64,000 bases of DNA from Salinibacter grassmerensis (GTDB lineage Bacteria; Bacteroidota; Rhodothermia; Rhodothermales; Salinibacteraceae). Positions within the stretch are counted from its first letter, which is position 1. Each line of letters starts with the position of its first letter. The stretch spans positions 54,856 through 118,855 of the forward strand of contig NZ_CAMTTF010000008.1 in NCBI RefSeq assembly GCF_947077765.1. The letters run 5' to 3'. Positions 1 to 14,228 of this stretch are shown here, piece by piece. The notes under the pieces are model-generated. The model was not told the DNA's origin and searched no databases. It saw nothing but the letters and a program-made list of their open reading frames with translations. The translations under genes were made by a program, and so were the position numbers.

Positions 1-1267
1 CGGTGGCGGCGTCGCCCTGCTTGCCCAGCACCTGCGCCGGACGGTACGTGGCCAGCACAAACGCCGGGTAGGCCCCCGACAAAAGGCCCACGAGCACCGC
101 AATGCCGACCGTCACCCCGACCCCGCCCGGCGTCAACAGCCCCTCTAGCTCTAGTGGGGGAAGGTCGAGCAGACTGAAGAGATAGAGGTCGTTGAAGAGG
201 GGCACGAGCCCCGCCAGCAGCAATACGGCGACCCCGGATGCGAGCAGGGCCGTGACCACCGACTCCGTCAAGAACTGCGCAACGAGTTGGGTGCGCTGCG
301 CGCCCAGTGTCTTCCGGACGCCCACCTCCCGGGCTCGCCGTAGCGACCGGGCCACCGACAAGTTCACGTAGTTGAAGATAGCGGCGAGGAGCGCGACGAC
401 TGCCAGTCCCCCCATCAGCCCAAAAATCCATCCGGGCAGTATTAGAAGGCCCGAGATCTCGTTTGCGAGGGTCGGGCTGAACCGCATGTCGTCCAGCGAC
501 TGTACCAGAAGTTGGAGATTGGACGCCACCTCCGACCGGGTCCGATTCTCAAACAGAGTTGTGGCCGCGGCCTGGAGGGTAGACGGCATTGTGTCGTCGC
601 CGAGCCGGACGTACGTGTTTTGGGTGTAGGTCTGCTTCCAGGCGTCCGGGGTGGAGGCCGTGGCGGACTCGTCGCCGGTAGAGAGGTATACGTCGGCATT
701 CACGTGGGAGGGAGCGTCGGAGGGGGAAAGGACCCCGACGACGGTGTGCTTTTCCTCTCCTTCGTGCCGGAAAGATTCGCCTACTGGGTTTGAGACGCCA
801 AACAGCTGCCGCGCCGTCTCCAGCGTCACCACAGCCGTACGGGGCCGCGACAGCGCGCCGCTCTGCGTTCCCGCCCGGAACCGGAAGCCGTCGAAGATTT
901 CCCAGAATGAATCGGTAGTCCGTATGGTCTCGGCGGTTAGGCTTTTGTTGTCGTGGACGATGAAGCTATCATCGTCCTTGTTGACGGAGGCGACGGCGTC
1001 AAGGCCCGCGACCGACTCTCGCAGGGCGGTCGGAAGCGGCCTCGGGGCCGTGGCGTAGCGCGAGCCGTCGCTCTGGTCGAGCGTCGTCACCCGGTGGATC
1101 TTCTCGCTTTCTGAATGGAAGCGATCTACCCGCCATTGCTGGCGCATGAACAGGAGTACGAGCAGGGCCACGGCGAGACTGACGGCCAGTCCGATGCCGT
1201 TAATGGCCGTAGAGCCCCGGTGCTTCCAGAGGGTGCGAACGGCCGTTTTGAGGTAGCTGCGAACCAT
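1..1267 (-). CDS. FtsX/MacB-type ABC transporter permease (3' end beyond window)
   Basis: About 422 residues are visible; the C-terminus lies before base 1. The protein opens with a short cytoplasmic helix and a first membrane segment (about residues 15-40). A large extracytoplasmic MacB-like core follows, then an FtsX domain with the hallmark stretch FNYVNLSVARS and REVGVRKTLGA. The same architecture is seen in the two complete permeases at 2897 and 5400, so the gene is a paralogue. The ATG at 1265-1267 aligns with their MLRNYLKIALR type starts. It lies 91 bp downstream of an ABC ATPase on the same strand and is probably co-transcribed with it. In this family the permease couples ATP hydrolysis to mechanotransmission or export. 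The substrate is unknown. Confidence 0.88.
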   Translation of the reverse strand, partial: MVRSYLKTAVRTLWKHRGSTAINGIGLAVSLAVALLVLLFMRQQWRVDRFHSESEKIHRVTTLDQSDGSRYATAPRPLPTALRESVAGLDAVASVNKDDDSFIVHDNKSLTAETIRTTDSFWEIFDGFRFRAGTQSGALSRPRTAVVTLETARQLFGVSNPVGESFRHEGEEKHTVVGVLSPSDAPSHVNADVYLSTGDESATASTPDAWKQTYTQNTYVRLGDDTMPSTLQAAATTLFENRTRSEVASNLQLLVQSLDDMRFSPTLANEISGLLILPGWIFGLMGGLAVVALLAAIFNYVNLSVARSLRRAREVGVRKTLGAQRTQLVAQFLTESVVTALLASGVAVLLLAGLVPLFNDLYLFSLLDLPPLELEGLLTPGGVGVTVGIAVLVGLLSGAYPAFVLATYRPAQVLGKQGDAAT

Positions 1268-1358: not shown

Positions 1359-2063
1359 CTATCTGATCTCTTCCGCCGACTCCGCCTCGACGGGGTGGTC
1401 GGCGTCTATCCAGCCGTCGTTCAGCTTGATGATGCGCTCCCCGTAGTCCGCCAGCGTTTCCGAATGGGTCACCTGCACGATCGTCACGTCATCCTCTGTG
1501 TTCAGCCGCGTCAGGGTCTCCATAATCTCCTCGCTCTGGTCCGACTGCAGGTTCCCGGTCGGCTCGTCGGCCAGAATGACCGTGGGCTCGATGATGAGCG
1601 CCCGCGCCACGCCCACGAGTTGCTGCTGCCCCCCGGAGAGCTGGTGGGGAAACAGATCCTTCTTCGCCACGAGCCGAAACCGATCGAGCATCTCGGCCAC
1701 CTTGCTCTCGCGCTCCGACGCGGAGAGGCCCTTGTAGATGAGCGGCGTCTCCAGGTTCTCGTAGACGGTCAGGTCGTCGATCAGGTGGTAGGACTGAAAG
1801 ACGAAGCCGATCTGCGAGCGGTGAATCTCGGTCCGGCGGTCTTCGCTCATCAAGTGGACAGGGTCGCCCATGAACTCGTACGTGCCCTCGGTCGGCGCGT
1901 CGAGCAGGCCCAGGATGTGGAGCAGCGTCGTCTTGCCGGCCCCCGACGGGCCCTGAACGGTGACAAACGCCCCCGCCTCAATGTCGAGGTCAATCTGGCG
2001 GAGGACAAAGGTCTGCGAGAGGCCGTCGCGATAGGCCTTGGTGAGGTCGCGTGTACGAATCAT
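1359..2063 (-). CDS. ABC transporter ATP-binding protein (MacB/LolD type)
   Basis: A 234-residue nucleotide-binding subunit. Visible motifs are Walker [10 protein letters not shown] (38-46), Q-loop VFQSYHLID, signature LSGGQQQ (142-148), Walker B VILADEPT (162-169) and the H-loop histidine in QVTHSE. After the signature the usual Arg of QQQRVA is Leu (QQQLVG), a small deviation. The ATPase should energise the permease encoded just downstream (1-1267). Its ATG overlaps the stop of a small upstream ORF in an ATGA junction, which suggests translational coupling. A sigma-54-like promoter and paired dyads lie further upstream (2279-2394). Confidence 0.93.
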
Positions 2064-2230
2064 AGCAGTACCAGGAGCGAACGAGCGAGAACGGCGACGA
2101 CGGACTGTGCGGGAAGGGCCTCGGACCGCGAGCCCGCGGAGAAGAACACGGACGGCTGCACCGCGAATCTGTCAAGGACGGCCCCTAGACTCCAACTCAG
2201 GAGAACGGCCACTCTTGCCGGACGAGTCAT
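2060..2230 (-). CDS. Possible small exported or membrane peptide, 56 aa
   Basis: No family recognised. The ORF begins at the ATG at 2228-2230 with a basic N-terminus (MTRPAR), then a hydrophobic stretch (VAVLLSWSLGAVL) like a short signal or anchor segment, and ends in another hydrophobic stretch. Its TGA stop overlaps the ATG of the ABC ATPase by 4 bases (ATGA), typical of coupled genes. The start lies about 40 bases downstream of the start site predicted from the sigma-54-like promoter at 2279-2296. A longer version from 2287 would overlap that promoter. It may be chance in GC-rich DNA; only the coupling and position support it. Confidence 0.35.
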   Translation of the reverse strand: MTRPARVAVLLSWSLGAVLDRFAVQPSVFFSAGSRSEALPAQSVVAVLARSLLVLL

Positions 2231-2278: not shown

Positions 2279-2296
2279 GGTCAACACCTGTGCCAG
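2279..2296 (-). promoter_or_regulatory. Sigma-54-like -24/-12 promoter for the 1-2230 operon
   Basis: Read on the minus strand the site is CTGGCACAGGTGTTGACC. It matches the sigma-54 consensus TGGCACG-N4-TTGC with correct GG-to-GC spacing (10 bases) except that the -12 GC is GA. The predicted start is near 2269. Paired dyads lie about 60-110 bp upstream at 2358-2394. A gene for a GAFTGA-containing sigma-54 activator lies in the same window (10859-12292). The GA at -12 lowers confidence. Confidence 0.5.
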
Positions 2297-2309
2297 GTCT
2301 CAAAAGCCC

Positions 2310-2328
2310 GCCTCAGCGCCGCTGAGGC
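2310..2328. repeat. 19-bp perfect inverted repeat between promoter and activator dyads
   Basis: The sequence GCCTCAGCGCCGCTGAGGC is self-complementary around a central C, with 9-bp arms. It sits between the sigma-54-like promoter (2279-2296) and the dyads at 2358-2394. It could be a separate operator or a local structure. No second copy was found at the matching position upstream of the 10644-10659 promoter, so it is not a shared element of both promoters. Confidence 0.4.
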
Positions 2329-2357
2329 AAGTCTGAGTGGCACGTTCGGGCCTGAAG

Positions 2358-2394
2358 TGTGCGCATTCGCACAGCCCCCTGCGCGTCAGCGCAC
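2358..2394. promoter_or_regulatory. Paired dyad operator, probable sigma-54 activator site
   Basis: The strong dyad is TGTGCGCATTCGCACA (2358-2373), with 6-bp arms around 4 bases. A second dyad, TGCGCGTCAGCGCA (2380-2393), follows. Their centres are about 21 bp apart, two helical turns. The same arm sequence and layout recur at 10710-10746 upstream of the other sigma-54-like promoter. In both places the strong dyad is nearer the promoter. This fits an upstream activating sequence for a dimeric Fis-type HTH regulator. Confidence 0.6.
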
Positions 2395-2459: not shown

Positions 2460-2744
2460 TCAGTCCCCAGCGTTCGGAGCCTCAGTGCTCTTCCTCCGCC
2501 GATGACACGTGATGGGCACGGCCCTGCCTTCCGGCACCCCGATCTGCACAAGCGACCAGTCCGAGTTGTAGTTGTCGAGGAAGGCGCGGATCTGCTCGGC
2601 CCGCTCCCCGGGCGTGACCTCAGGGCCCCAGGTGACCGTTTCGATGCGGTACTCCATCAGAAGTGTTCGCCCGCCGACCGTGACCTCCAGCTCGAGGGTC
2701 TCGTCCGCCTCGGGCATGAGGATCGGAATGCTGACTTGGCCCAT
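2460..2744 (-). CDS. Hypothetical protein, 94 aa
   Basis: No family recognised. It starts at the ATG at 2742-2744 (MGQVSIPILMPEADE). The first 70 residues are acidic and rich in beta-forming residues (LELEVTVGGRTLLMEYRIETV), like other halophile proteins here, while the last 15 are basic (CHRRRKS). It lies 152 bp downstream of the large permease on the same strand and upstream of the dyads at 2358, so it may be the last gene of the upstream operon. Codon use resembles its neighbours. Confidence 0.6.
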   Translation of the reverse strand: MGQVSIPILMPEADETLELEVTVGGRTLLMEYRIETVTWGPEVTPGERAEQIRAFLDNYNSDWSLVQIGVPEGRAVPITCHRRRKSTEAPNAGD

Positions 2745-2896: not shown

Positions 2897-5302
2897 TCAT
2901 TCGTCGCGAAGCGTCCGGGCCGGGTCGGTCTGCGCGGCACGGACCGTCTGCGACCCGACCGCGAGGAACGCTAATACGCCCAAGCCCGCGGCACTCAGCA
3001 CGAACGGCAGCGCGCCCATCTCAATCCGGTAGGCCATGCTGCGGAGCCAAAGCCGGTTCAGCCACCACGCCAGGGGCAGGCCCAGCGCCCCCGCGGCGCC
3101 CACCAGCCACAGGAAGTCCTTCGACAACAGCCCTACGACGGAGGGCACGGTCGCGCCCAGTGCTTTCCGAATCCCGATCTCGCGGGTGCGGGTCTGCACC
3201 GTGTAGGTGGCAATGCCGAGCAGGCCCAGGCACCCGATGAGGGCGGCCAGGGCTGCCACCAGCGCCAGGACGCCCCCGGCCTCAGCGATCGGCGTCACAA
3301 CCCCGCTCCGTACGATCTCGTCGTAGCGGCGCACGTCGGGAGGGTTCACGGAATCGAACTGCTGCCACGTGCTACTCAGGGCGGTGAGGGCGGCCTGCTC
3401 CTGTGACGAGGCCACCTCGGCGATGGCGGCCCGAAACCCAGCCGGGTCGTAGCGAAACACCACCGGCTGATCCGGCGACTCCGAAAAACGGATGTAGAAG
3501 TTTGGGGTGACGGCGGCGATGCGGACCTGGCGCGTGGTGTCGCGCCGCTCCATCATCACGGGCGCGCCGAGGGCCGACTTCGCCGACTCGAACCCGAGCG
3601 TGCGGGTCGCCGCCTTGTTGGCGACGATCACCTGCCCATCTTCAAATCGCGCCTCCGACCACTCGTCGGTCGTCGTTAGGGGAACGTCGAGGATCCGAAG
3701 CGCCTCGTAGTCGGCCGGGTAGTAGATCGACGCAAAGGAATCGGCAATGTGGGCCGAGTGGAGAGACGCGGTGGTGGTGCGCCCGTCGAGGGGGAGGTTG
3801 CGCACCGCACCCACCTGCTCAACGCCGGTGACGGCCCGGGCCTCCTGCCGGAAGGGCGTCATCGGGGCGTCTTGCAACGCCACGCGCGCAACATGGTCGG
3901 TCCGGACGCCTGCATTGTCCCGCTGCTCCATGTGCTGGACCTGCTGGTAGACCAGCGCCGCGGTCACGATCACCACGATGGCAACGGTAAACTGGAGCAC
4001 CGTGAGAACCTTGCGTAGGGTCATCCAGCCCAACCCGGGCGTCTCGCTCTGCGCACTGGCCTTGAGCACCCGCGCCGGACGGAATTTCGACAGGTGCCAC
4101 GCCGGATAGAGGCCGGCCACGGCCCCCACGCCCAGCGCAAAGAGCAGGAAGGCCCCGTACACGAGCGGGCCCTGCCGCACGTCAATCTGAGCGCCGAGGG
4201 TCTGATGGATCGAGAGTTGGTTATACAGGGGCACGAGTCCCTGCAGGAGTACAAGCGCGAGGCCCAGTGCCAGCAGCGACACGATGGTGCCCTCCGCAAC
4301 AAATTGCCCCATTACCTGCCGCCGCCGGGCCCCCACAGCTTTTCGGACGCCCACCTCCCGGGCCCGCGTGAGCGACCGGGCGGTCGATAAGTTGACGTAG
4401 TTGAAGGCGGCCGCCACCAGCACCAGCAGCGCCAGAATGCCCAGAAAGTACCCGATGACTGACGGCAGCATCCCCGTCGCAATCTCGTTGGGGAGGAGCT
4501 CGCTCAGCGGCAGTGCCGAGAGGGCCTGCAGCCGGAACGCCTCCGGCGGCACGCCCTCCGCCGACGGGGGTGGCAGGTACTGCTCCTCGATCTGCCGGAG
4601 GGTCGGCGCCAGGTCGGCCGGCGTGGTGCCGGGCGCGAGGCGGAGATACGTGTAGTAGGCATAACCTCTATCCCAGTCGCTCTCAATCTCCTCGGCCCGG
4701 GTCTGCTGGAGGGTGGCGAACGAATACAGCACGTCGAAGTCCAGGTGCGACCGATAGGCGTCGCGGTCCACGACGCCAGTAACGGTGAAGGTGCCCATCT
4801 CCTTAAGCTGAAAGGTGCGGCCCATCGGGTTTTGGTCCCCGTACAGCTGGGTTTCGAAGTCCTGGGCGATCACCGCGGTGTAGGGATCACTCAAGACCTC
4901 TGCCGCCCTTCCGGCCTCCAGCTGAAAGCCAAAGAGGTCGAAGAACTGCGGCTCGGCGTAGAGGCCCTGGGCACGGAATCCGCGGTTATCCTGCGACACG
5001 TTGCGGTCGGTGCGCCGCAGACGCGTGGCCGTTTCGAGGCCCGCGACCCCGTCCCGAAGTACCGGCGCCAGTCCCGCCGGCGACGGGGCGTACGGGTCCG
5101 GATTCTCCTGATGGGTGGTCGTGACGCGATGGATGCGCTCGCTGTCGGGATGGAAGTCGTCGTGCGTCACCTGATCCCAGAAGAGCAGGCCCACGAGCAG
5201 GCAGACAGCCATCCCCGCCGCTAGGCCCACCACGTTGATGGCGGTGATGCCCTTCTGCTTCCAGAGCGTGCGGAGCGCAATCTTGAGGTAGTTGCGGAGC
5301 AT
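2897..5302 (-). CDS. FtsX/MacB-type ABC transporter permease, 801 aa
   Basis: A full-length two-FtsX-domain permease. It opens with MLRNYLKIALRTLWKQ and a membrane segment at about 18-42. An extracytoplasmic MacB-like core with the DDFHPDSERIHRV signature follows. The first FtsX domain at about 280-415 contains FNYVNLSTARS and REVGVRKAVGA. After a second periplasmic domain, a C-terminal FtsX domain at about 690-790 contains REIGIRKALGA and ends in ARTLRDE. This long permease class is common in Bacteroidota and Rhodothermota, and its substrates are mostly undefined. It lies 97 bp downstream of the next permease and probably shares a transcript with it and the ATPase at 8161. Confidence 0.92.
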   Translation of the reverse strand: MLRNYLKIALRTLWKQKGITAINVVGLAAGMAVCLLVGLLFWDQVTHDDFHPDSERIHRVTTTHQENPDPYAPSPAGLAPVLRDGVAGLETATRLRRTDRNVSQDNRGFRAQGLYAEPQFFDLFGFQLEAGRAAEVLSDPYTAVIAQDFETQLYGDQNPMGRTFQLKEMGTFTVTGVVDRDAYRSHLDFDVLYSFATLQQTRAEEIESDWDRGYAYYTYLRLAPGTTPADLAPTLRQIEEQYLPPPSAEGVPPEAFRLQALSALPLSELLPNEIATGMLPSVIGYFLGILALLVLVAAAFNYVNLSTARSLTRAREVGVRKAVGARRRQVMGQFVAEGTIVSLLALGLALVLLQGLVPLYNQLSIHQTLGAQIDVRQGPLVYGAFLLFALGVGAVAGLYPAWHLSKFRPARVLKASAQSETPGLGWMTLRKVLTVLQFTVAIVVIVTAALVYQQVQHMEQRDNAGVRTDHVARVALQDAPMTPFRQEARAVTGVEQVGAVRNLPLDGRTTTASLHSAHIADSFASIYYPADYEALRILDVPLTTTDEWSEARFEDGQVIVANKAATRTLGFESAKSALGAPVMMERRDTTRQVRIAAVTPNFYIRFSESPDQPVVFRYDPAGFRAAIAEVASSQEQAALTALSSTWQQFDSVNPPDVRRYDEIVRSGVVTPIAEAGGVLALVAALAALIGCLGLLGIATYTVQTRTREIGIRKALGATVPSVVGLLSKDFLWLVGAAGALGLPLAWWLNRLWLRSMAYRIEMGALPFVLSAAGLGVLAFLAVGSQTVRAAQTDPARTLRDE

Positions 5303-5399: not shown

Positions 5400-7796
5400 C
5401 TATTCCTCCCGAAGCGCGGGGGCCGGGTCCACGAGGGCGGCGCGGATCGAGTGCACGCTCACGGTGCCGAGCGCGAGGAGTGCCACCACGATGCCGGCGC
5501 TCAGAAAGAGCCACGGCCCCAGATCCACGCGGTAGGCAAAGCCCTCCAGCCACGCCTGCGCGCCGAGATAAGCCCCCGGCGCGGCTACGACAAACGCGAT
5601 GCCGACGAGGGCGAGGAAGTCCTTCGACAGCAGGCCAAGGAGGTGGCTCATCGTCGCCCCCAGCACCTTGCGGATGCCAATTTCTTTCCGGCGCTGCCGC
5701 ACCGTGAAGGCCGCGAGTCCGAGGAGGCCCAGGCACGCCACGAACAGGGCCAGGCCCGCGAAGCCGCCGAAGATGGATGCGAGACGCCGTTCGGCCTGGT
5801 ACTGGCGCTCGAAATCTGCGTCGAGGAAGAAGTGCTCGGTCGGATACGCCGGGTAGAGATCGTTCGACGTCTGCCGCAGGTGATCGAGGGCCTGCGATGC
5901 CTGACCGGGGCCTACTCGCATCGCTGCGTACTCGTAGCCTTCGGGGGCGAAGCGCAAAAAGAGAGGCTCGATTTTTTGTCGGAGCGAGAAGTGATGGTAG
6001 TCTTCAACGACGCCTACGACCTCGTAAAGAGTCTTTTCGTTGCGGCGCATTGTCTTTCCGACCGCCGTCCTGGGGCGATCCCATCCGTTCACCTCCACAG
6101 CCGTCTCGTTGACGAGTACCGGGCGCGGATCTTTTGCACCCCGGTCCCCTGGACGAAAGCCACGTCCAGCAATGACCTCCAAGTCGAGGGTTTCCAAATA
6201 GTCCGCATCCACGTCGTACCGGCGCAGGTCGCGCGTCTCGTCGTCGGGATGTCCCTCCGGACGCACCACAATGCCGTCGGCAATCGAGCGGCCCGGCACG
6301 CCGCCCGTCACGGCGGCCCGTTGAATGCTGGGCGCGCGCGACAGCTCCTGCTTCAGCGTGCGATACTGCTGGGCGACCAATGTGTCCGGCACCGGACGCA
6401 GGTCGGCCACGAGCACCTGCTTGTCCTGAAAGCCCAGATCCTGGCCCTGCATGTACGCGAACTGGCGGAGGATCACGGCGACGCCAATCACGAGGGCCAT
6501 GGCCACGCCAAACTGAAAGACCACGAGCCCCTTACGAAGCCACTGCCGCTGCCGCGATCCGGTCAGGAAATCCTGAAGCACGCGCGCCGGCTGGAAGCGG
6601 GAGAGGACCAGGGCCGGGTAGCTCCCGGCCAGGACCCCCACCATGGTCACGCCCACGATGGCCCCTACGATTACCGTGGGGGCTGCCAACGTTGAGACCG
6701 AAAGCGTCTTTCCACTAACGGCGTTCACGAGCGGCAGGCCCACCGCCACGAGGCCCACCGCCAGAACCGCCCCGGACAGTACCGTCAAGACCGACTCGGC
6801 GAGAAACTGCCCGGCGAGGCCGCTCTGCGTGGCCCCGATCGCCTTGCGCACGCCGACCTCGCGGGCGCGGTCCATCGACCGCGCCGTCGCCAGGTTCATG
6901 AAGTTGATACACGCAACCAGCAGCACGAGGACGGCGATGCCTGCAAAGAGGGAGACAGTTTGAATGTCGCCCGATTCGCTTAGGGCATAGCGCCGGTCGG
7001 AGTGAAGGTGGATGTCTGAGACCTGCTGCAAGCTGAGAATAGACGTCATCCCAAGGACCTCCTGTACGCGCCCGCCCGTCTCTTCGTCGACGAACTGGGC
7101 GATGTCTTCCTCAAACGACTGAACGTCGGCGCCACTGGACAGAACGAGATACGTGTAGGCGTTGATGTTGCCCCAACTCTGCTGCTGAGAGTCGCTGAGG
7201 CTCGAGTACGAGAAGACGCCTTCAAACTGGAGGTGAGTATTCGCTGGTGGGTCGTCCACGATCCCTGTCACCGTGTATTCGGTCTCGTCCGCCACGATCG
7301 TCTGTCCCATCGGATCCTGGTCGCCGAAGTACGTCCTTGCGGTCCGCTCCGTCAGCACCACCGACCTCGGCGCCCGTAGCGCTGTCGAATCGCCCCGCTG
7401 CAGCGTAAACCCGAAGGATTCGAAAAGGTCGGGCTCGGCGTAGAAAAACGACCGATCCCGGTAAAACTGCGCCCCCACCTTCACGGTCGGTTCTCGGGCG
7501 TTGTGCAGCCGAACAGCCGTCTCTACCTCCGGATATTTGCGCTCTAGGATCGGGCCGACCGGCTGAGGGGTGGATGCGAGTTCTCGCACATGATCGTCTC
7601 CTTTCAGGTCCGTGACCACCCGGTGGAGCCGATCGCCTGTGGGGTGAAAGTCGTCGTAGCTGAGCTCGTCGGCCACGTAGAGCCCGATGCACGCGCACAC
7701 GGCGAGGCCCACGGCCAGTCCGAGGACGTTGATGGTCGTGTAGCCGAGGTGGCGGCGCATGCGCCGGAGCGCCACGGTGAGGTGGTTGCGGAGCAT
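5400..7796 (-). CDS. FtsX/MacB-type ABC transporter permease, 798 aa
   Basis: A paralogue of the 2897 permease with the same plan. The N-terminus is MLRNHLTVALRRMRRH plus a membrane helix. The MacB-like core has DDFHPTGDRLHRV, the first FtsX domain has INFMNLATARS and REVGVRKAIGA, and the C-terminal FtsX domain has KEIGIRKVLGA and ends PALREE. It lies 73 bp downstream of the internally deleted mini-permease (7870-8076), on the same strand as the ATPase at 8161. It is expected in the inner membrane, perhaps pairing with the 2897 permease as a heterodimer. The pairing is inferred from adjacency only. Confidence 0.92.
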   Translation of the reverse strand: MLRNHLTVALRRMRRHLGYTTINVLGLAVGLAVCACIGLYVADELSYDDFHPTGDRLHRVVTDLKGDDHVRELASTPQPVGPILERKYPEVETAVRLHNAREPTVKVGAQFYRDRSFFYAEPDLFESFGFTLQRGDSTALRAPRSVVLTERTARTYFGDQDPMGQTIVADETEYTVTGIVDDPPANTHLQFEGVFSYSSLSDSQQQSWGNINAYTYLVLSSGADVQSFEEDIAQFVDEETGGRVQEVLGMTSILSLQQVSDIHLHSDRRYALSESGDIQTVSLFAGIAVLVLLVACINFMNLATARSMDRAREVGVRKAIGATQSGLAGQFLAESVLTVLSGAVLAVGLVAVGLPLVNAVSGKTLSVSTLAAPTVIVGAIVGVTMVGVLAGSYPALVLSRFQPARVLQDFLTGSRQRQWLRKGLVVFQFGVAMALVIGVAVILRQFAYMQGQDLGFQDKQVLVADLRPVPDTLVAQQYRTLKQELSRAPSIQRAAVTGGVPGRSIADGIVVRPEGHPDDETRDLRRYDVDADYLETLDLEVIAGRGFRPGDRGAKDPRPVLVNETAVEVNGWDRPRTAVGKTMRRNEKTLYEVVGVVEDYHHFSLRQKIEPLFLRFAPEGYEYAAMRVGPGQASQALDHLRQTSNDLYPAYPTEHFFLDADFERQYQAERRLASIFGGFAGLALFVACLGLLGLAAFTVRQRRKEIGIRKVLGATMSHLLGLLSKDFLALVGIAFVVAAPGAYLGAQAWLEGFAYRVDLGPWLFLSAGIVVALLALGTVSVHSIRAALVDPAPALREE

Positions 7797-7869: not shown

Positions 7870-8076
7870 TCATTCGTCCCGCAGCGTCGTCGCTGGGTCG
7901 GTGCGGGCGGCGCGGAGGGCGTGTACGCTTGCGGTGAGGCCGGCAATCAGGAGGGCGCCCGCGGCGGTCACCACGAAGGGAAGGGCGCCGAGCGCCAGCC
8001 CTATGATGTTGAGGACGGCGTACAGAGGACGACGTCGGATGCGTCGGAGGGCGATCGTAAGCGTATTGAGGGGCAC
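7870..8076 (-). pseudogene. Mini-permease: FtsX permease with about 700 internal residues deleted in frame
   Basis: The 68-residue reading frame joins the beginning of a permease (GTG-started VPLNTLTIALRRIRRR, then NIIGLALG in the first helix) directly to the end of one (ALPFVVTAAG, then ARTDPATTLRDE). The neighbours at 2897 and 5400 have the same two ends separated by over 700 residues; the 2897 C-terminus reads GALPFVLSAAG and TDPARTLRDE. The join lies near 7985-7990, in a Gly-Ala pair shared by both ends. No stop codon or frameshift interrupts it, so it could still make a two-helix membrane peptide. It sits between the ATPase and the 5400 permease. Confidence 0.75.
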
Positions 8077-8160
8077 GGACTGAAGTGTTCTTGTTGTGAT
8101 GGAGGGGACGAAAAACCGCTCGGTCCAAGAGGGCCAGCCCACACGTTACGCGAACACGAG

Positions 8161-8865
8161 TCAGACCCCAGGATGGGCGGCGTACTCCTGCTCGATGAAG
8201 TTTTCGGAGACGACCTTGCCATCGAACAGGTGGATGGTGCGGGCCGAGTACTCGGCGTCGGCGGGGGAGTGGGTCACCATCACGATGGTGGTGCCCGCCT
8301 CGTTGAGGTCCGAGAGCAGCTCCATCACCTGCGCGCCGTTCGTGGAGTCGAGGTTCCCGGTCGGCTCGTCGGCCAGGATCAGCTTCGGGTTGGCCACCAC
8401 CGCGCGCGCCACGGCCACCCGCTGCTGCTGGCCTCCGGACAACTGCTGCGGAAAGTGATCGCGGCGGTGGGCGATCTGCACCCGATCCAGGGCCGCCTCC
8501 ACCCGTTCGCTGCGCTCGGCGGAGGGGGTGTCGAGGTAGAGGAGGGGCAGCTCCACGTTCTCGTAGACGGTGAGCTCGTCGATCAGGTTAAAGCTCTGAA
8601 AGACGAACCCGATGTTGCCCTTCCGGAGCTTCGCGCGCTGGCGCTCGCTGCGGTCGCCGACCTCCTGCCCGTCGAACGCGTAGCGGCCCTCGGTCGGGGC
8701 GTCGAGCAGGCCGAGCACGTTGAGGAGGGTAGACTTGCCGCAGCCGGACGGGCCCATCACCGACACGAACTCGCCGGTGTCGATCTCGATGTTGACGCCG
8801 TTGAGGGCCAGGGTTTCGACCTCGTCGGTGCGGTAGACCTTCTGTAGGTTCTCGGTCTTGATCAT
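8161..8865 (-). CDS. ABC transporter ATP-binding protein (MacB/LolD type)
   Basis: A 234-residue ATPase with Walker A GPSGCGKST (38-46), Q-loop VFQSFNLID, canonical signature LSGGQQQRVAVARA, Walker B LILADEPT and H-loop MVTHSP. The stretch RTIHLFDGKVV near the end is typical of MacB and LolD ATPases. It is followed by the mini-permease and two full permeases and preceded, after 284 bp without a convincing gene, by the membrane-fusion protein. That gene set is typical of tripartite or mechanotransmitting exporters. It is probably part of the operon driven from 10644-10659. Confidence 0.94.
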   Translation of the reverse strand: MIKTENLQKVYRTDEVETLALNGVNIEIDTGEFVSVMGPSGCGKSTLLNVLGLLDAPTEGRYAFDGQEVGDRSERQRAKLRKGNIGFVFQSFNLIDELTVYENVELPLLYLDTPSAERSERVEAALDRVQIAHRRDHFPQQLSGGQQQRVAVARAVVANPKLILADEPTGNLDSTNGAQVMELLSDLNEAGTTIVMVTHSPADAEYSARTIHLFDGKVVSENFIEQEYAAHPGV

Positions 8866-9149: not shown

Positions 9150-10550
9150 CTACTGGAGAGACAGACGGTCGGCGTCGCCGAAGGTGTCGTAGCTGCTGGT
9201 GATGACCTTGTCGCCCGGCGCCAGCCCTTCCAGCACTTCGAAGTGATTGGGGTTCTGGCGCCCGAGGCGGATGGACCGCCGCACCGCCATGTCCTCGCCT
9301 TCAGCGAGCACGTAGGCCCAGTTGCCGCCGGTGCTTTGGTAAAACCCGCCCCGCGCCAGGAGGGTTGCCTCCTGCGGCTGCCCCAGTTGAAGCCTCAGGC
9401 GCGCCGTCTGGCCGCGGCGCAGGCCGCGGGGGGAGCCGCCCTGCACGGCGAGGTCCACCTCAAACCGGCCGTCCTCAACCTCCGGATAGACGCGGTCGAC
9501 AACGAGGGTGCGGGCCGTGTCCCCGAGGGCGTCGGTGGTGGCCGTCTGGCCGTGCTGGACACGCTCGATGTAAAACTCGTCGACCTGGGCCCGCAGCTTG
9601 AAGTCGTCGGTGTTGTCGACCCGCCCGATCCGCTGGCCCCGCCCGATCGTCTGTCCGACCTCCGCGTTGAGGGACGTCAGTTGCCCGTTGATGGGGGCGC
9701 GGACGGTCAGGCTCTCCACCGATTCCTGGATGACCTCGTACTGCTCGTCGAGCCGCTGACGCTGCTGGCGCTGCTGCTGGAGTTGAGACCGAAAGCTGAG
9801 GGAGTCCTGCCGGTAGGCCGACCGGGTCAGCTCCAGCCGACGGCGCTGGTACCGGAGGTCATCGCGGGTCCGCTGAAACGCCCGGTCGGCAATCAGGTCC
9901 TGATCGTGGAGCCGCTTCTGGCGCTTGAACTGTCGCTCCAGTTGGCGGATCTGGTTCCGGATGTTGGCCAGGTCGCGCTGGAGGCTTAGCCGGCGCTCCT
10001 CCATCGACATCCGCAGCTGCTGCATGTTGCTTCGCTGCTCGGCCAGCCGGGTCTCGGTGTCGGCGAGCTCCAGGCGGAGGTCGTTGTTGGAGAGGCGCAG
10101 AATTGGGTCGCCCGCCCGGACCTGCGCCCCGGCCCGGGCGGGGACCGCCTCGATGCGCCCCCCTTCCTCGGCGCTCAGAAAGACCGTCTTCTCCGGAACG
10201 GCCGTGCCGGTTACCGCGATGAACTCCTGGAAGTCCCCCTGCCCGACAGTCGAAATCGTGACCTTCTCGCGGTCGACATTAAGGACGCGCCCCCCCGTGG
10301 CGGTGTCCCACACGCCGTACGCCAGCGCGCCGACGATCAGAAAGGCCGCGAGTCCGGCGGCTACGCGTGTCGGGGTGAAAACGGGCGTCTCGATGTTGCG
10401 GTCGATGCCTTCTCCGGTGCCGCCCGTTTCGGTATCGCCCCCGGAGGAGGGATTGCCCTGAAGGAGGGGCGACTCGGGCGAGGACGACTCATCGGAGGCC
10501 CGATTCTCGGGGGACGTTCCGTTTGGGGCGGTCGAGTCCTGTGGCGCCAT
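9150..10550 (-). CDS. HlyD/MacA-family membrane-fusion (periplasmic adaptor) protein
   Basis: A 466-residue adaptor. A low-complexity acidic N-terminal tail (1-60) is followed by one membrane anchor (about 62-81, VAAGLAAFLIVGALAYGV). A biotinyl-lipoyl-like half domain (VTGTAVPEKTVFLSAE) comes next, then a long Gln/Arg-rich coiled coil of about 120 residues, the second lipoyl half (VRAPINGQLTSLNAEVGQ) and beta-barrel domains. It should link the inner-membrane ABC permeases to an outer-membrane channel; no TolC gene is in the window. The start at 10548-10550 is preferred because the longer frame to 10724 would run through the sigma-54-like promoter and an operator. The ABC genes downstream are its likely partners. 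Confidence 0.92.
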   Translation of the reverse strand: MAPQDSTAPNGTSPENRASDESSSPESPLLQGNPSSGGDTETGGTGEGIDRNIETPVFTPTRVAAGLAAFLIVGALAYGVWDTATGGRVLNVDREKVTISTVGQGDFQEFIAVTGTAVPEKTVFLSAEEGGRIEAVPARAGAQVRAGDPILRLSNNDLRLELADTETRLAEQRSNMQQLRMSMEERRLSLQRDLANIRNQIRQLERQFKRQKRLHDQDLIADRAFQRTRDDLRYQRRRLELTRSAYRQDSLSFRSQLQQQRQQRQRLDEQYEVIQESVESLTVRAPINGQLTSLNAEVGQTIGRGQRIGRVDNTDDFKLRAQVDEFYIERVQHGQTATTDALGDTARTLVVDRVYPEVEDGRFEVDLAVQGGSPRGLRRGQTARLRLQLGQPQEATLLARGGFYQSTGGNWAYVLAEGEDMAVRRSIRLGRQNPNHFEVLEGLAPGDKVITSSYDTFGDADRLSLQ

Positions 10551-10641: not shown

Positions 10642-10659
10642 GCGCAACGGGCGTTCCAG
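10642..10659 (-). promoter_or_regulatory. Sigma-54-like -24/-12 promoter for the adaptor/ABC operon
   Basis: On the minus strand the site reads CTGGAACGCCCGTTGCGC. It matches TGGCACG-N4-TTGC with both invariant elements (GG and GC) at the correct 10-base separation and one mismatch (C to A). The predicted start is near 10632, giving an 80-base leader to the adaptor ATG at 10550. Activator-type dyads lie 50-90 bp upstream (10710-10746). The divergently encoded neighbour is a sigma-54 activator, which strongly supports the assignment. Confidence 0.68.
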
Positions 10660-10709: not shown

Positions 10710-10746
10710 TGTGCGGATCCGCACAGTCGGATGTGCGCAATCGCCC
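10710..10746. promoter_or_regulatory. Paired dyad operator, probable sigma-54 activator site
   Basis: A perfect 16-bp palindrome TGTGCGGATCCGCACA (10710-10725) is followed by a weaker half-conserved copy TGTGCGCAATCGCCC (10732-10746). The centres are 22 bp apart. The arms match those at 2358-2373 exactly. The site lies between the divergent adaptor operon and the activator gene, so it may also mediate autoregulation of the activator. The binding protein is inferred, not shown. Confidence 0.62.
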
Positions 10747-10858
10747 GCTGGTTGATGGGACCGCCCGCCATGCCGTGGAAAGAGAAACCATCTGCGGATT
10801 GCTTCGCTTCAGAATGATGTCCCTCAACGCACTTCCGCACGGACGTCCTGGTGTCGCC

Positions 10859-12292
10859 ATGCCTGCCTCCCCCGCGTCCCCCAGTGCCGAGACCAACGGT
10901 CGGGTGCTCGTCGTCGATGACAACCGGGACGTGCTCACAGCACTTCGTCTCCTGCTCAAAGAACACGTGGGCGCGGTCCACACCGCCACCGACCCGTCGT
11001 CCATTCCGTCGCTCCTTGGCGACAACGACTACGACACGATTCTGCTGGACATGAACTTCCAGCAGGACGCCTCCAGCGGCCGGGAGGGGTTTGAGTGGCT
11101 CGGCAAGATCCAGGAGATCGATCCGCGGGCCGTGGTGGTTATGATCACGGCGTACGGCGACGTGGACAAGGCCGTGCGCGCCATGAAGGCGGGGGCAGCG
11201 GACTTCATCGTGAAGCCGTGGACCGACCCGGAGCTGGTGGCGAGCGTCCAGGCGGCCATCAAGCTCCACCAGACCCGCGCGGCGGCGGAGGCATCAGGGG
11301 ACGCCCCCTCAAACGCTGAGCCGGACGTGGCCGCGGCGGCGGAGGAACCGCCGCCCGGGTTCGAGGGCATTGTTGGGAGGAGCGCGGAGATGCAGGCAGT
11401 CTTCGATCTCATCCAGAAGGTGGCTACGACAAGCGCCAATGTGCTCATCCTCGGCGAGAACGGCACCGGAAAAGAACTCGTGGCCCGTGCGGTGCACCGG
11501 CGCTCCGACCGGGCTGAGGGGGCATTCGTGACGGCGGACCTCGGGGCCCTCAGTCCGTCGCTCTTTGAGAGCGAGCTGTTTGGGCACGTGGAGGGGGCCT
11601 TTACGGGGGCCGACGCGGACCGGGCGGGGCGCTTCGAGACGGCCGACGGGGGGACGCTCTTTCTCGACGAGATTGGCAACATTCCCCTGGAGCTCCAGAA
11701 GAAGCTGCTCACGGTGCTCCAGCGCCGTGAGGTGACGCGGGTGGGGGCGGTGGAGGCGCGGCCCGTTGACATCCGGCTGGTGTGTGCCACGAACCAGCCC
11801 ATTTACGACGCGACGAACGACGAGGACTTCCGACAGGATCTTCTCTTTCGCATCAACACGGTCGAGATTGAGCTGCCCCCGTTGCGGGAGCGCGGGGACG
11901 ACGTGCTCCTTCTGGCGCGTCATTTCCTGGGCGAGTACGCGGCGAAATACGATGCCGCGACCACGGGCTTTACGGACGAGGCGCAGGCGGCCCTTCACCA
12001 GTACCACTGGCCCGGAAACGTGCGGGAGCTGAGGCACACGGTCGAGCGGGCCGTCATTCTCAGTGAGTCGGCCCAAATCGAGCCCGGCGATCTGCGCTTC
12101 TCAGCCCCGTCCCGGGATGCCTCAAGCGGTGATGGAGAAGGGGCCTTCAACACCCTCGACCTTGACGATCTGGAGCAGAAGGCGGTCCGGAAGGCGCTTA
12201 GCAAGCACGGGGGCAATGTGAGCCAGGCCGCCGATGAGCTTGGTATTTCCCGCCGTGCCCTTTACCGCCGTATCGAAAAATATGGTCTGTGA
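10859..12292 (+). CDS. NtrC-family sigma-54-dependent response regulator
   Basis: A 477-residue three-domain activator. The receiver domain has acidic pocket VVDDN (18-22), phospho-acceptor Asp64 (LLDMN), MITAYG and Lys119 in VKP. The AAA+ domain has Walker A GENGTGKE (199-206), the sigma-54-contacting loop GAFTGA (246-251) and Walker [11 protein letters not shown]-terminal Fis-type HTH ([19 protein letters not shown]) completes it. The ATG at 10859 begins just before the receiver domain; in-frame ATGs at 10814 and 10817 are alternatives. It diverges from the exporter operon and is followed after 25 bp by a four-helix-bundle gene and then a sensor kinase, its likely partner. GAFTGA fits the two sigma-54-like promoters in this locus. 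Confidence 0.95.
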
Positions 12293-12317
12293 GAATGTGC
12301 GTTTGGGCGAGGGGCGA

Positions 12318-12833
12318 ATGGAGGAGAAGACGAAAAGGCGAGAGGGGGATGAGCAGAAAGTGGGATTGGAGAGCGAGGAGGAATTTCTTGACCAGTATCA
12401 GAAAGATCTTGAGGTCATGGCGATTGAGCGTGTTGAGGATCTGGAGGTGTATCGGTCGGCGTTTTGTTCATCAATGGAGATCTTTCGGCAATCGAAGGAA
12501 CGGCCGAAGGTGGAGCGGTGCGCGTTGGCGGATCAGATTCGGCGGTTCTCGCGGGCGGTCTGTGCGAATCTTTCGGAGGTGTGGCGAAAGCGGCGGTACC
12601 CGAAGCACTTTGTCAACAAGCTGTCGGATGCCGGTGCGGAGGCCAGTGAGACCCGAACGTGGCTCCGGTTTGCGCGGAGTTGTGAGTATCTGGGTTTGGA
12701 AGCGTTCGAGACCTTGGACGATCGGTACGATCGGATCTGCGGGGGACTTGTGCAGATGATGGATGCTCCCGAAAAGTGGTGCGGTCCCACCGACTCTGCT
12801 CAGGAACCCTCGGTTCCCTACGACACGGAGTAA
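12318..12833 (+). CDS. Four-helix-bundle (S23/IVP-like) protein
   Basis: A 171-residue protein. Its centre and end match the four-helix-bundle family first known from 23S rRNA intervening sequences: a run RVEDLEVYRSAFCSSMEIF, then ALADQIRRFSRAVCANLSE and FVNKLSDAGAEASETRTWL. An extra charged N-terminus of about 35 residues precedes the family region. The ATG at 12318 follows GAGGGG. It lies 25 bp after the response regulator and 45 bp before the sensor kinase, so all three are probably co-transcribed. Its function is unknown. Free-standing copies are common in Bacteroidota and Rhodothermota, where they are not inside rRNA genes. Confidence 0.82.
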   Translation: MEEKTKRREGDEQKVGLESEEEFLDQYQKDLEVMAIERVEDLEVYRSAFCSSMEIFRQSKERPKVERCALADQIRRFSRAVCANLSEVWRKRRYPKHFVNKLSDAGAEASETRTWLRFARSCEYLGLEAFETLDDRYDRICGGLVQMMDAPEKWCGPTDSAQEPSVPYDTE

Positions 12834-12878: not shown

Positions 12879-14228
12879 ATGCACAAGCGGTTTCGTGTAC
12901 AGGTGGCTGTGCGGGTTGGGGCCCTGATGGCCTTGGTGGCGGGGGCAGCGTACCTGATCTTCGGGCGCGCTCTCTATCTCCCGGGCGGCCTCCTGGGAGC
13001 GTGCGCCATCCCCGTCGGCGTGTCGCTGGTGCGCTACACGGAAAAGACCACCCGCGACCTCACCCGTTTTCTGGAATCGGTCCGCTACGCCGACTTCACC
13101 CGCCGGTTCACGACCGATGGGCGCGGGCCGGTCTTTGAGGACCTGCGCGACGCCTTCGAGGACGTAACGGCTGAGTTTCGGCGGCTGCGGGCCGAGAAGG
13201 AGCGCCAGGTGCAGTACCTGCAGCAGGTGGTGCAGCACCTCGGGGTGGCCCTGATCACGTACCAGGACGACGGCGAGGTGGAGACGATGAACACGGCCGC
13301 CCGGCGTCTCCTCCGCACCGGCCCCATCCGGCACGTAGAGGCGCTCGAACGGGTGAGCGATGAGCTTGCCGAGGCGCTCCGCACGCTCGACTCTGGCGAC
13401 CAGGCGATGGTGCGGGTGGAGGAGACGGACCGGACGCTCCAGCTGGCCGTCCGGGTGAGCCGGTTTCAGTTGCAGGGGGAGCCCCACGCCCTCGCCTCGA
13501 TTCAGGACCTCCGCAACGAGTTGGAGGAGAAGGAGATGGAGGCGTGGCAGCAACTCACGAGCGTCCTCACCCACGAGATCATGAATTCCGTGGCGCCCAT
13601 CTCGTCGCTCGCCTCCACCGCTTCGCGTCGCCTGCAGTCCGGCGGGGGTACTGGAACGATCACCGCCGACCAGGCCGCCGACGCCCAGGAGGCGGTGGAC
13701 ACGATTGAGCGACGGAGCGAGGGCCTCATGAACTTCGTCGACGCCTACCGCAGCTTCACCGACATCCCGGCGCCCGAGTTTGAGGTCCTCGACGCCAGGC
13801 CCCTCCTCGACGACGTGGAGAGCCTGCTCCGCGCCCAGATCGAAGAGCAGAGTCTTGAGGTTGCGGCCTCCGTCGACCCCCCTGATCTAACCCTCTCTGG
13901 GGACCCCGATCTCCTGGAGCAGTTGCTCATCAACCTGGCGCTGAACGCCGTGCAGGCCATCGAGGAAGACGCTGAGACGAGGCAGGGGCGCATCGAATTC
14001 CGCGCGTTCGTCGACCGGCGGAGTCGTCCCGTGATTCAGGTGGAGGACAACGGCCCGGGCATCCCCGACGACGTGCAAGAGAAGATCTTCGTTCCCTTCT
14101 TTACCACGAAGGAGGAGGGCTCCGGGATCGGCCTCAGCCTGTCGCGCCAAATCATGCGTCTGCATGGGGGCAGTCTCTCGGTCCGCTCCACGGAAGGCGA
14201 CGGGTCGGTTTTCACGCTCCGTTTCTGA
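12879..14228 (+). CDS. Sensor histidine kinase (NtrB-like)
   Basis: A 449-residue membrane kinase. Two N-terminal helices (about 8-30 and 33-52) have almost no loop between them. A HAMP-like or linker helix follows, then a PAS-like region (about 110-210), a dimerisation domain with phospho-acceptor His232 in LTHEIMNSVAP, and a catalytic ATPase domain with N-box NLALNAVQAI, G1 VEDNGPGIP and FFTTKEEGSGIGLSL. The EIMNSVAP H-box is typical of kinases paired with NtrC-class regulators. It probably phosphorylates the regulator at 10859. The near absence of a periplasmic domain suggests that it senses a membrane or cytoplasmic signal. Confidence 0.93.
   Translation: MHKRFRVQVAVRVGALMALVAGAAYLIFGRALYLPGGLLGACAIPVGVSLVRYTEKTTRDLTRFLESVRYADFTRRFTTDGRGPVFEDLRDAFEDVTAEFRRLRAEKERQVQYLQQVVQHLGVALITYQDDGEVETMNTAARRLLRTGPIRHVEALERVSDELAEALRTLDSGDQAMVRVEETDRTLQLAVRVSRFQLQGEPHALASIQDLRNELEEKEMEAWQQLTSVLTHEIMNSVAPISSLASTASRRLQSGGGTGTITADQAADAQEAVDTIERRSEGLMNFVDAYRSFTDIPAPEFEVLDARPLLDDVESLLRAQIEEQSLEVAASVDPPDLTLSGDPDLLEQLLINLALNAVQAIEEDAETRQGRIEFRAFVDRRSRPVIQVEDNGPGIPDDVQEKIFVPFFTTKEEGSGIGLSLSRQIMRLHGGSLSVRSTEGDGSVFTLRF

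Follow-up and report, generated by a model that had tools for sequence, protein, structure and literature searches.

The locus raises the question of whether two blocks of ABC exporter genes are switched on together by one regulator. The window, i.e., the whole stretch of 64,000 nucleotides that was analysed, belongs to a 3.78 Mb genome of the genus Salinibacter. A first-pass annotation had predicted a single two-component, sigma-54-controlled regulon for both ABC blocks. This prediction is supported by relatives, in which the same elements stand before the same types of gene and in helical register. Judged from sequence, it is highly probable that an NtrC-family activator (EBP) and its partner kinase bind the dyads of the window and drive all exporter operons. 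The genes concerned are the following.

1-1266, minus strand: MacB/FtsX-type permease, truncated by the window edge (tblastn)
1359-2063, minus strand: ABC ATPase D of the exporter island (PF00005; best NCBIfam match DarD)
2060-2230, minus strand: leader ORF of 56 aa with a hydrophobic start, between promoter 2 and ATPase D
2460-2744, minus strand: orf94, small protein, present in many related islands (tblastn)
2897-5302, minus strand: duplicated MacB_PCD/FtsX permease, ADOP-like (Pfam, NCBIfam)
5400-7796, minus strand: duplicated MacB_PCD/FtsX permease, ADOP-like (Pfam, NCBIfam)
8161-8865, minus strand: ABC ATPase A of the exporter island (PF00005; best NCBIfam match DarD)
9150-10550, minus strand: HlyD-type periplasmic adaptor (PF13437; NCBIfam RND_mfp above cut-off, DarC below)
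10859-12292, plus strand: NtrC-family activator (EBP) with receiver, sigma-54 AAA+ and Fis-type HTH domains (Pfam)
12879-14228, plus strand: sensor histidine kinase with H-box and HATPase (Pfam, motifs)

Beyond the truncated permease, a second one was found upstream of the window by tblastn. The stop codon of the 56-aa leader ORF overlaps the start codon of ATPase D (ATGA). Leader ORFs were also present in genomes G004, with the same overlap, and G020; both are longer and have a membrane-type stretch. Pfam and NCBIfam searches gave no match for orf94. A short ORF at 7870-8142 (minus strand) resembles the start and the end of a permease with the middle absent. It had no Pfam match and is perhaps a collapsed permease copy within the island.

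The best NCBIfam matches of the exporter genes were the darobactin-type exporter DarBCD (NF038010, NF038007), i.e., DarC for the adaptor and DarD for the ATPases, and the duplicated permeases of ADOP (TIGR03434) for the window permeases. The adaptor scored 216.8 bits against a cut-off of 450, ATPases A and D 278 and 217.9 bits against 375, and the permeases 88.2 and 101.6 bits against 700 in the DarBCD comparison. With TIGR03434 the window permeases reached 330.2 and 279.5 bits, and four permeases of three relatives 288-311 bits, against a cut-off of 622.3. Because all of these scores are below the curated cut-offs, the genes are considered relatives of DarBCD and ADOP, not members.

Two promoter-dyad elements, called modules 1 and 2, were located before the two exporter blocks.

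2280-2295, minus strand: sigma-54 type promoter 2, TGGCAC-N5-TTGAC, before the second ATPase block, 9/11 consensus positions
2358-2373, no strand: strong dyad of module 2, TGTGCG-N4-CGCACA, exact copy, TGTGCGCATTCGCACA
2380-2395, no strand: weaker dyad of module 2, 22 bp further out, two mismatches (from sequence)
10643-10658, minus strand: sigma-54 type promoter 1, TGGAAC-N5-TTGCG, before the adaptor, 9/11 consensus positions
10710-10725, no strand: strong dyad of module 1, TGTGCG-N4-CGCACA, exact copy, TGTGCGGATCCGCACA
10732-10747, no strand: weaker dyad of module 1, 22 bp further out, two mismatches (from sequence)

The two minus-strand sites of sigma-54 type that had been claimed are thus present, as are both strong dyads and, each 22 bp further out, the weaker ones. 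Promoter 2 reads TGGCAC-AGGTG-TTGAC (minus strand, 2295-2280) and has GA, not GC, in its -12 element; counterparts were found before ATPase D in G004 and G020. Promoter 1 reads TGGAAC-GCCCG-TTGCG (minus strand, 10658-10643). Neither of the weaker dyads would stand out by itself, and the one of module 1 lies 22 bp out in loci L028, L029 and L030 as well. The distance from the strong dyad to the -24 element is 62 bp in module 2 and 51 bp in module 1, which bears out the offset of one helical turn claimed for the two elements.

The dyads could also be read as transcription terminators or RNA hairpins of upstream genes, since the 2358 dyad comes after orf94 on the same strand. This reading was rejected because the 10710 dyad is placed between two divergent genes, where no gene ends. 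Neither of the strong dyads is followed by a run of T, and a whole-turn distance to a promoter is not expected of terminators, so that this origin is considered extremely improbable.

As the first-pass annotation had stated, a GAFTGA-containing activator lies beside the adaptor-side element; GAFTGA is at residue 246 of EBP 10859. The acidic residues and the T and K motifs of its receiver are present, and searches against solved structures returned NtrC-family and Fis-type relatives. In relatives, the kinase gene adjoins the EBP gene. HATPase_c in kinase 12879 and Response_reg in the EBP exceeded the Pfam cut-offs, whereas HisKA scored 18.2 bits, below its cut-off of 26.9; the H-box motif is present. 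The kinase has two hydrophobic segments near its N-terminus, at about residues 7-34 and 32-51, and therefore probably has very little protein outside the membrane. Between the two genes, a gene for a 23S rRNA-intervening-sequence protein (PF05635) was found at 12315-12830 (plus strand). It looks inserted, because in the congeneric genomes G004 and G006 only about 80-90 bp separate EBP and kinase.

The rpoN gene, on whose presence the proposal had been made to depend, was found as one copy in the genome (PF04552, E 1.7e-58). The features of a sigma-54/EBP regulon were therefore found together, i.e., rpoN, an AAA+ EBP with GAFTGA and an HTH, and conserved -24/-12 and palindromic sites. Those of a two-component system are likewise there, as the receiver has its motifs and the partner kinase its H-box and HATPase. 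From these elements we infer binding of the activator to the dyads, firing of the promoters and signalling from the kinase to the activator.

In the proposed mechanism, kinase 12879 would phosphorylate the NtrC-type activator 10859, and a Fis-type HTH dimer of the activator would occupy each dyad. Paired dyads, two helical turns apart, would lie on one face of the DNA. From there, the assembled AAA+ ring would reach the polymerase with sigma-54 at -24/-12. The distance to be spanned is about 52 or 63 bp in the window and 74 or 85 bp in some relatives, and whole-turn spacing would keep the ring facing the polymerase. Firing of the sigma-54 promoters before both exporter blocks would activate all parts of the ABC export island at once. 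Many permease operons of larger islands have their own copy of the module.

In the window's own genome, the dyad is rare. Exact TGTGCG-N4-CGCACA occurs at two places in 3.78 Mb, and both are within the window. The search was made for exact and one-mismatch dyads, and 11 further places had one mismatch; a reversed control pattern with at most one mismatch gave 7 places. None of the 11 had a -24/-12 site of at least 9/11 within 20-130 bp, the best being one site of 8/11 at a gap of 26 bp. A wider regulon built on these one-mismatch dyads was therefore rejected for this genome. The genome-wide search for dyads with promoters that had been suggested at first pass thus left only the two window sites.

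Orthologs of the EBP were found in 59/244 genomes of the class at a threshold of E <=1e-115, and among 60 relatives they separate from paralogs. A dyad and a sigma-54 promoter were present between the HlyD-type adaptor side and the EBP in 58/58 ortholog loci. Here a dyad was counted at >=8/10 fixed positions of TGTnCG-N4-CGnACA, upstream of the promoter, and a promoter when the best adaptor-side site had >=8/11. Locus L160 (G220) gave no row in the promoter scoring, so that the 60 EBP places are not all within the 58. G021 has a partial EBP and was left out of the counts. As the adaptor side of L076 is in L075, this locus was omitted when arms and phase were counted. Within the genus Salinibacter, the adaptor was found in 3/13 genomes, the same three as the EBP. 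Of these, G006 has the EBP and a dyad with one mismatch, none being exact, and no second module was found in the 40 kb examined.

Exact dyads were found in 11/12 genomes whose EBP has R or K aligned with R466, the covarying residue of EBP 10859, and in 6/48 genomes without such an EBP (60 genomes, own included; Fisher p 4e-7, kinship ignored). In the 60 genomes the dyad occurred at 33 places, and the reversed control pattern at 15. The six dyad-bearing genomes without an R/K-type EBP were G017, G020, G025, G030, G032 and G053. The first three have the module and no EBP was found in them; their drafts are 62, 88 and 56% complete, respectively. In G030, G032 and G053 the exact dyad had no promoter. 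Exact dyads without a promoter were observed in L095, L098, L099, L100 and L101, and probably arose by chance.

The genome has 12 PF00158 matches, seven of them strong, and with seven strong EBP genes the dyads might bind a regulator other than EBP 10859, i.e., a repressor or another strong EBP, and be near the promoters by coincidence. The three draft genomes with modules in which no EBP ortholog was found would agree with such a regulator. Against it, the dyad stands beside this EBP in all 58 loci, exact dyads occur mainly where orthologs of EBP 10859 occur, the dyad sequence changes with the recognition helix of the EBP, and the dyad is in helical register with the -24 element. Another regulator is thus unlikely, and EBP 10859 is preferred as the dyad-binding protein. 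The last two of these points are described below.

Helical register was seen in the distances between the best dyad and the promoter in the 58 EBP loci, i.e., 51-54 bp (13 loci), 62-65 bp (6), 72-75 bp (29), 82-89 bp (9) and 96 bp (1). The clusters near 52, 63, 74 and 85 bp correspond to steps of one helical turn. When each of 31 genera contributed a single gap, the gaps were concentrated in phase with R 0.75 at 10.7 bp, promoter and dyad having been picked without regard to phase. This value was reached by 0/5000 random sets, which overstate independence because the genera are related. Where paired dyads of >=9/10 were found at one promoter (12 cases), they were spaced by 21 bp (9 cases), 20 bp (2) or 22 bp (1); the window's own pairs are below the threshold of this count.

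Sigma-54 sites directed towards the EBP were also observed. Such a site (>=8/11) between the dyad and the EBP was found in 24/58 loci, including L106, L137 and L153, compared with 3.7 expected from mononucleotide shuffling. There were 27 of these sites, 19 of them at gaps of 43, 53-54, 60-64 or 74-75 bp. The window has no EBP-directed site at >=8/11. By these counts, the EBP gene of many relatives may be driven by the same enhancer as well, i.e., by a two-way enhancer with possible self-activation.

The dyad sequence varies together with one residue of the activator. In the 13 loci whose EBP has R or K at the R466 position, base 4 of the dyad arm was G in 26/26 half-sites. It was T, C or A in 75/76 half-sites of the A type, 6/6 of the G type and 6/6 of the T type, so that outside the R/K types one G was found in 88 half-sites, in an A-type locus. 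L110, whose two half-sites both have T, was counted as of unknown type and, being short, was also left out of the tree. With at most one mismatch, TGTGCG dyads were present in 13/14 R/K regions and 1/45 others, and TGTTCG dyads in 0/14 and 36/45, respectively. The R/K region without a dyad is L076, whose adaptor side is missing from the region.

The R/K proteins were separated from all others in the tree by one branch, which has a support of 100/100. The match between residue and base is therefore a single switch, i.e., one event, and the tree holds no independent replicate of it. The outgroup was poor, because the row for L056 was not the activator but the longest frame at that locus; the root, and hence the direction of the switch, is not trusted. 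The NtrC residue equivalent to 466 is presumably N457. In LuxO, Ser423 is among the critical residues of the HTH (PMC11407668). Our own mapping, which uses the position ahead of the I/L-Y-R motif, would make residue 466 the counterpart of LuxO Ser423.

By stricter criteria, 52 dyad-promoter combinations at 40 promoters were found in 1.24 Mb of sequence. Among the controls, a single combination had its dyad on the wrong side, and each of three dinucleotide shuffles gave 0; as the 1.24 Mb had been chosen for holding an EBP ortholog or an exact dyad, it is the wrong-side control, unlike the shuffles, that corrects for this choice. These counts also bear on the rival reading in which the -24/-12 sites match by chance and the genes are transcribed with another sigma factor. 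The shortness of the GG-N10-GC pattern and the GA at -12 of promoter 2 would favour chance. The contrast between 52 combinations and none in the shuffles, together with a best site of at least 8/11 in 58/58 loci, makes this reading very improbable, and the sites are taken as candidate sigma-54 promoters.

By looser criteria, 68 promoter-dyad units were obtained. By the next matched gene, 22 units stand before the adaptor, 18 before a permease, 6 before an ATPase and 10 before the EBP; 12 had no such gene, and no unit was inside a matched gene. The two sites of the window are thus members of a series of modules, of which one relative has seven. In that relative (G035), 7 modules, 19 permeases and one adaptor were found in 110 kb, with ATPase A at one end of the island, ATPase D at the other and a third, distant ATPase (32% identity) inside. 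G047 has 5 modules and 12 permeases, G056 has 4 modules and 10 permeases, and the window's own genome has 2 modules and 4 permeases. Modules with a promoter of >=8/11, a dyad of at most one mismatch to TGTGCG-N4-CGCACA and a gap of 40-99 bp were collected from nine stretches of eight genomes. All of them (27/27) were oriented along the direction of the exporter genes, and the nearest dyad was at 51-54 bp (16 modules) or 62-65 bp (11).

Distant third ABC ATPases (32-33% identity) were located at L073 13448-14113 (the G035 island) and at G056:C8:41755-42420. The S. altiplanensis island has permease fragments at its far end (G006:C16:334523-335214), and the 40 kb examined there had one long permease only. 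The permease array may thus shrink as well as grow.

A broader reading would be that of an expandable export array, in which permeases that are interchangeable and grow in number share one adaptor and two ATPases. Each permease operon would come with a copy of a cartridge made of enhancer and sigma-54 promoter at whole-turn spacing, the shared regulator would tie ATPase-less 'orphan' permeases to their energy source, and residue 466 would have reset the address between TGT(T/C/A)CG and TGTGCG across the island. This proposal is tentative, and we consider its chance somewhat less than even.

The kind of regulon is already known, i.e., two-component control with sigma-54, and the added interest is the modular spread over a permease array. 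Enhancers of sigma-54 promoters are usually positioned 100-150 bp upstream (PMC7057263). In Clostridiales the sites are mostly 100-250 bp away, TGT...ACA with a spacer of 10-12 bp is common, and 170/263 EBPs control one operon, the rest two to six (PMC6615313). The NifA/FhlA-type and Clostridiales regulons resemble the present one in having an EBP with a Fis-type HTH and a sigma-54 promoter at the targets (PMC6615313). These regulons further share TGT...ACA inverted repeats, often several per promoter, and an EBP that usually adjoins its targets (PMC6615313). They differ in distance, as the nearest site here is about 51-89 bp from -24 in 57/58 loci and theirs is mostly at 100-250 bp. Unlike theirs, the present targets include a repeated permease array, and one EBP is predicted for up to 7 modules, compared with one to six operons in Clostridiales (PMC6615313).

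Sigma-54 promoters were reported to be enriched before FtsX-like ABC permeases (COG0577) in a 2025 survey, which called this the first evidence (PMC12316311). The permeases behind those promoters belong to the superfamily found here and are likewise predicted to be controlled by sigma-54, in Bacteroidota too. In the parts of the survey consulted, the account is one of promoter enrichment and names no activator, binding site or island for FtsX-like permeases; Rhodothermota and Salinibacter are not mentioned in its text. Among titles and the beginnings of abstracts, no published account joining activator, site and island was found, and this survey was the nearest publication. Six terms on ABC export and upstream sites were absent from the text of PMC3162934.

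Little was found in print on the control and the ATPase partners of MacB/FtsX-type permeases. If the regulon is real, these permeases would have a named activator, binding site and promoter in 59/244 genomes of the class. The ATPase partner of orphan-like duplicated permeases would be open to direct experiment. The gaps of about 52, 63, 74 and 85 bp would be a natural spacing series for helical phasing at a short-range sigma-54 enhancer, and one residue with one base pair would serve for testing the specificity of a Fis-type HTH. Three features merit a test, namely the modular build of the permease array, the series of whole-turn spacings and the change of address by one residue.

Beyond the class, 80 loci were sampled, of which 7 were contigs already in the set. 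A dyad at the set criterion was found in 6 of the remaining 73, i.e., in four Parabacteroides loci at a gap of 54 bp, in one alphaproteobacterium at 83 bp and in one Aminicenantes locus at 24 bp, the last being an odd distance. The Parabacteroides loci (L188, L189, L190 and L194) have related EBPs and TGTCCG-like dyads 54 bp from a sigma-54 site, and L189 and L194 have an additional gap of 75 bp. These gaps share the register seen in the class of Salinibacter.
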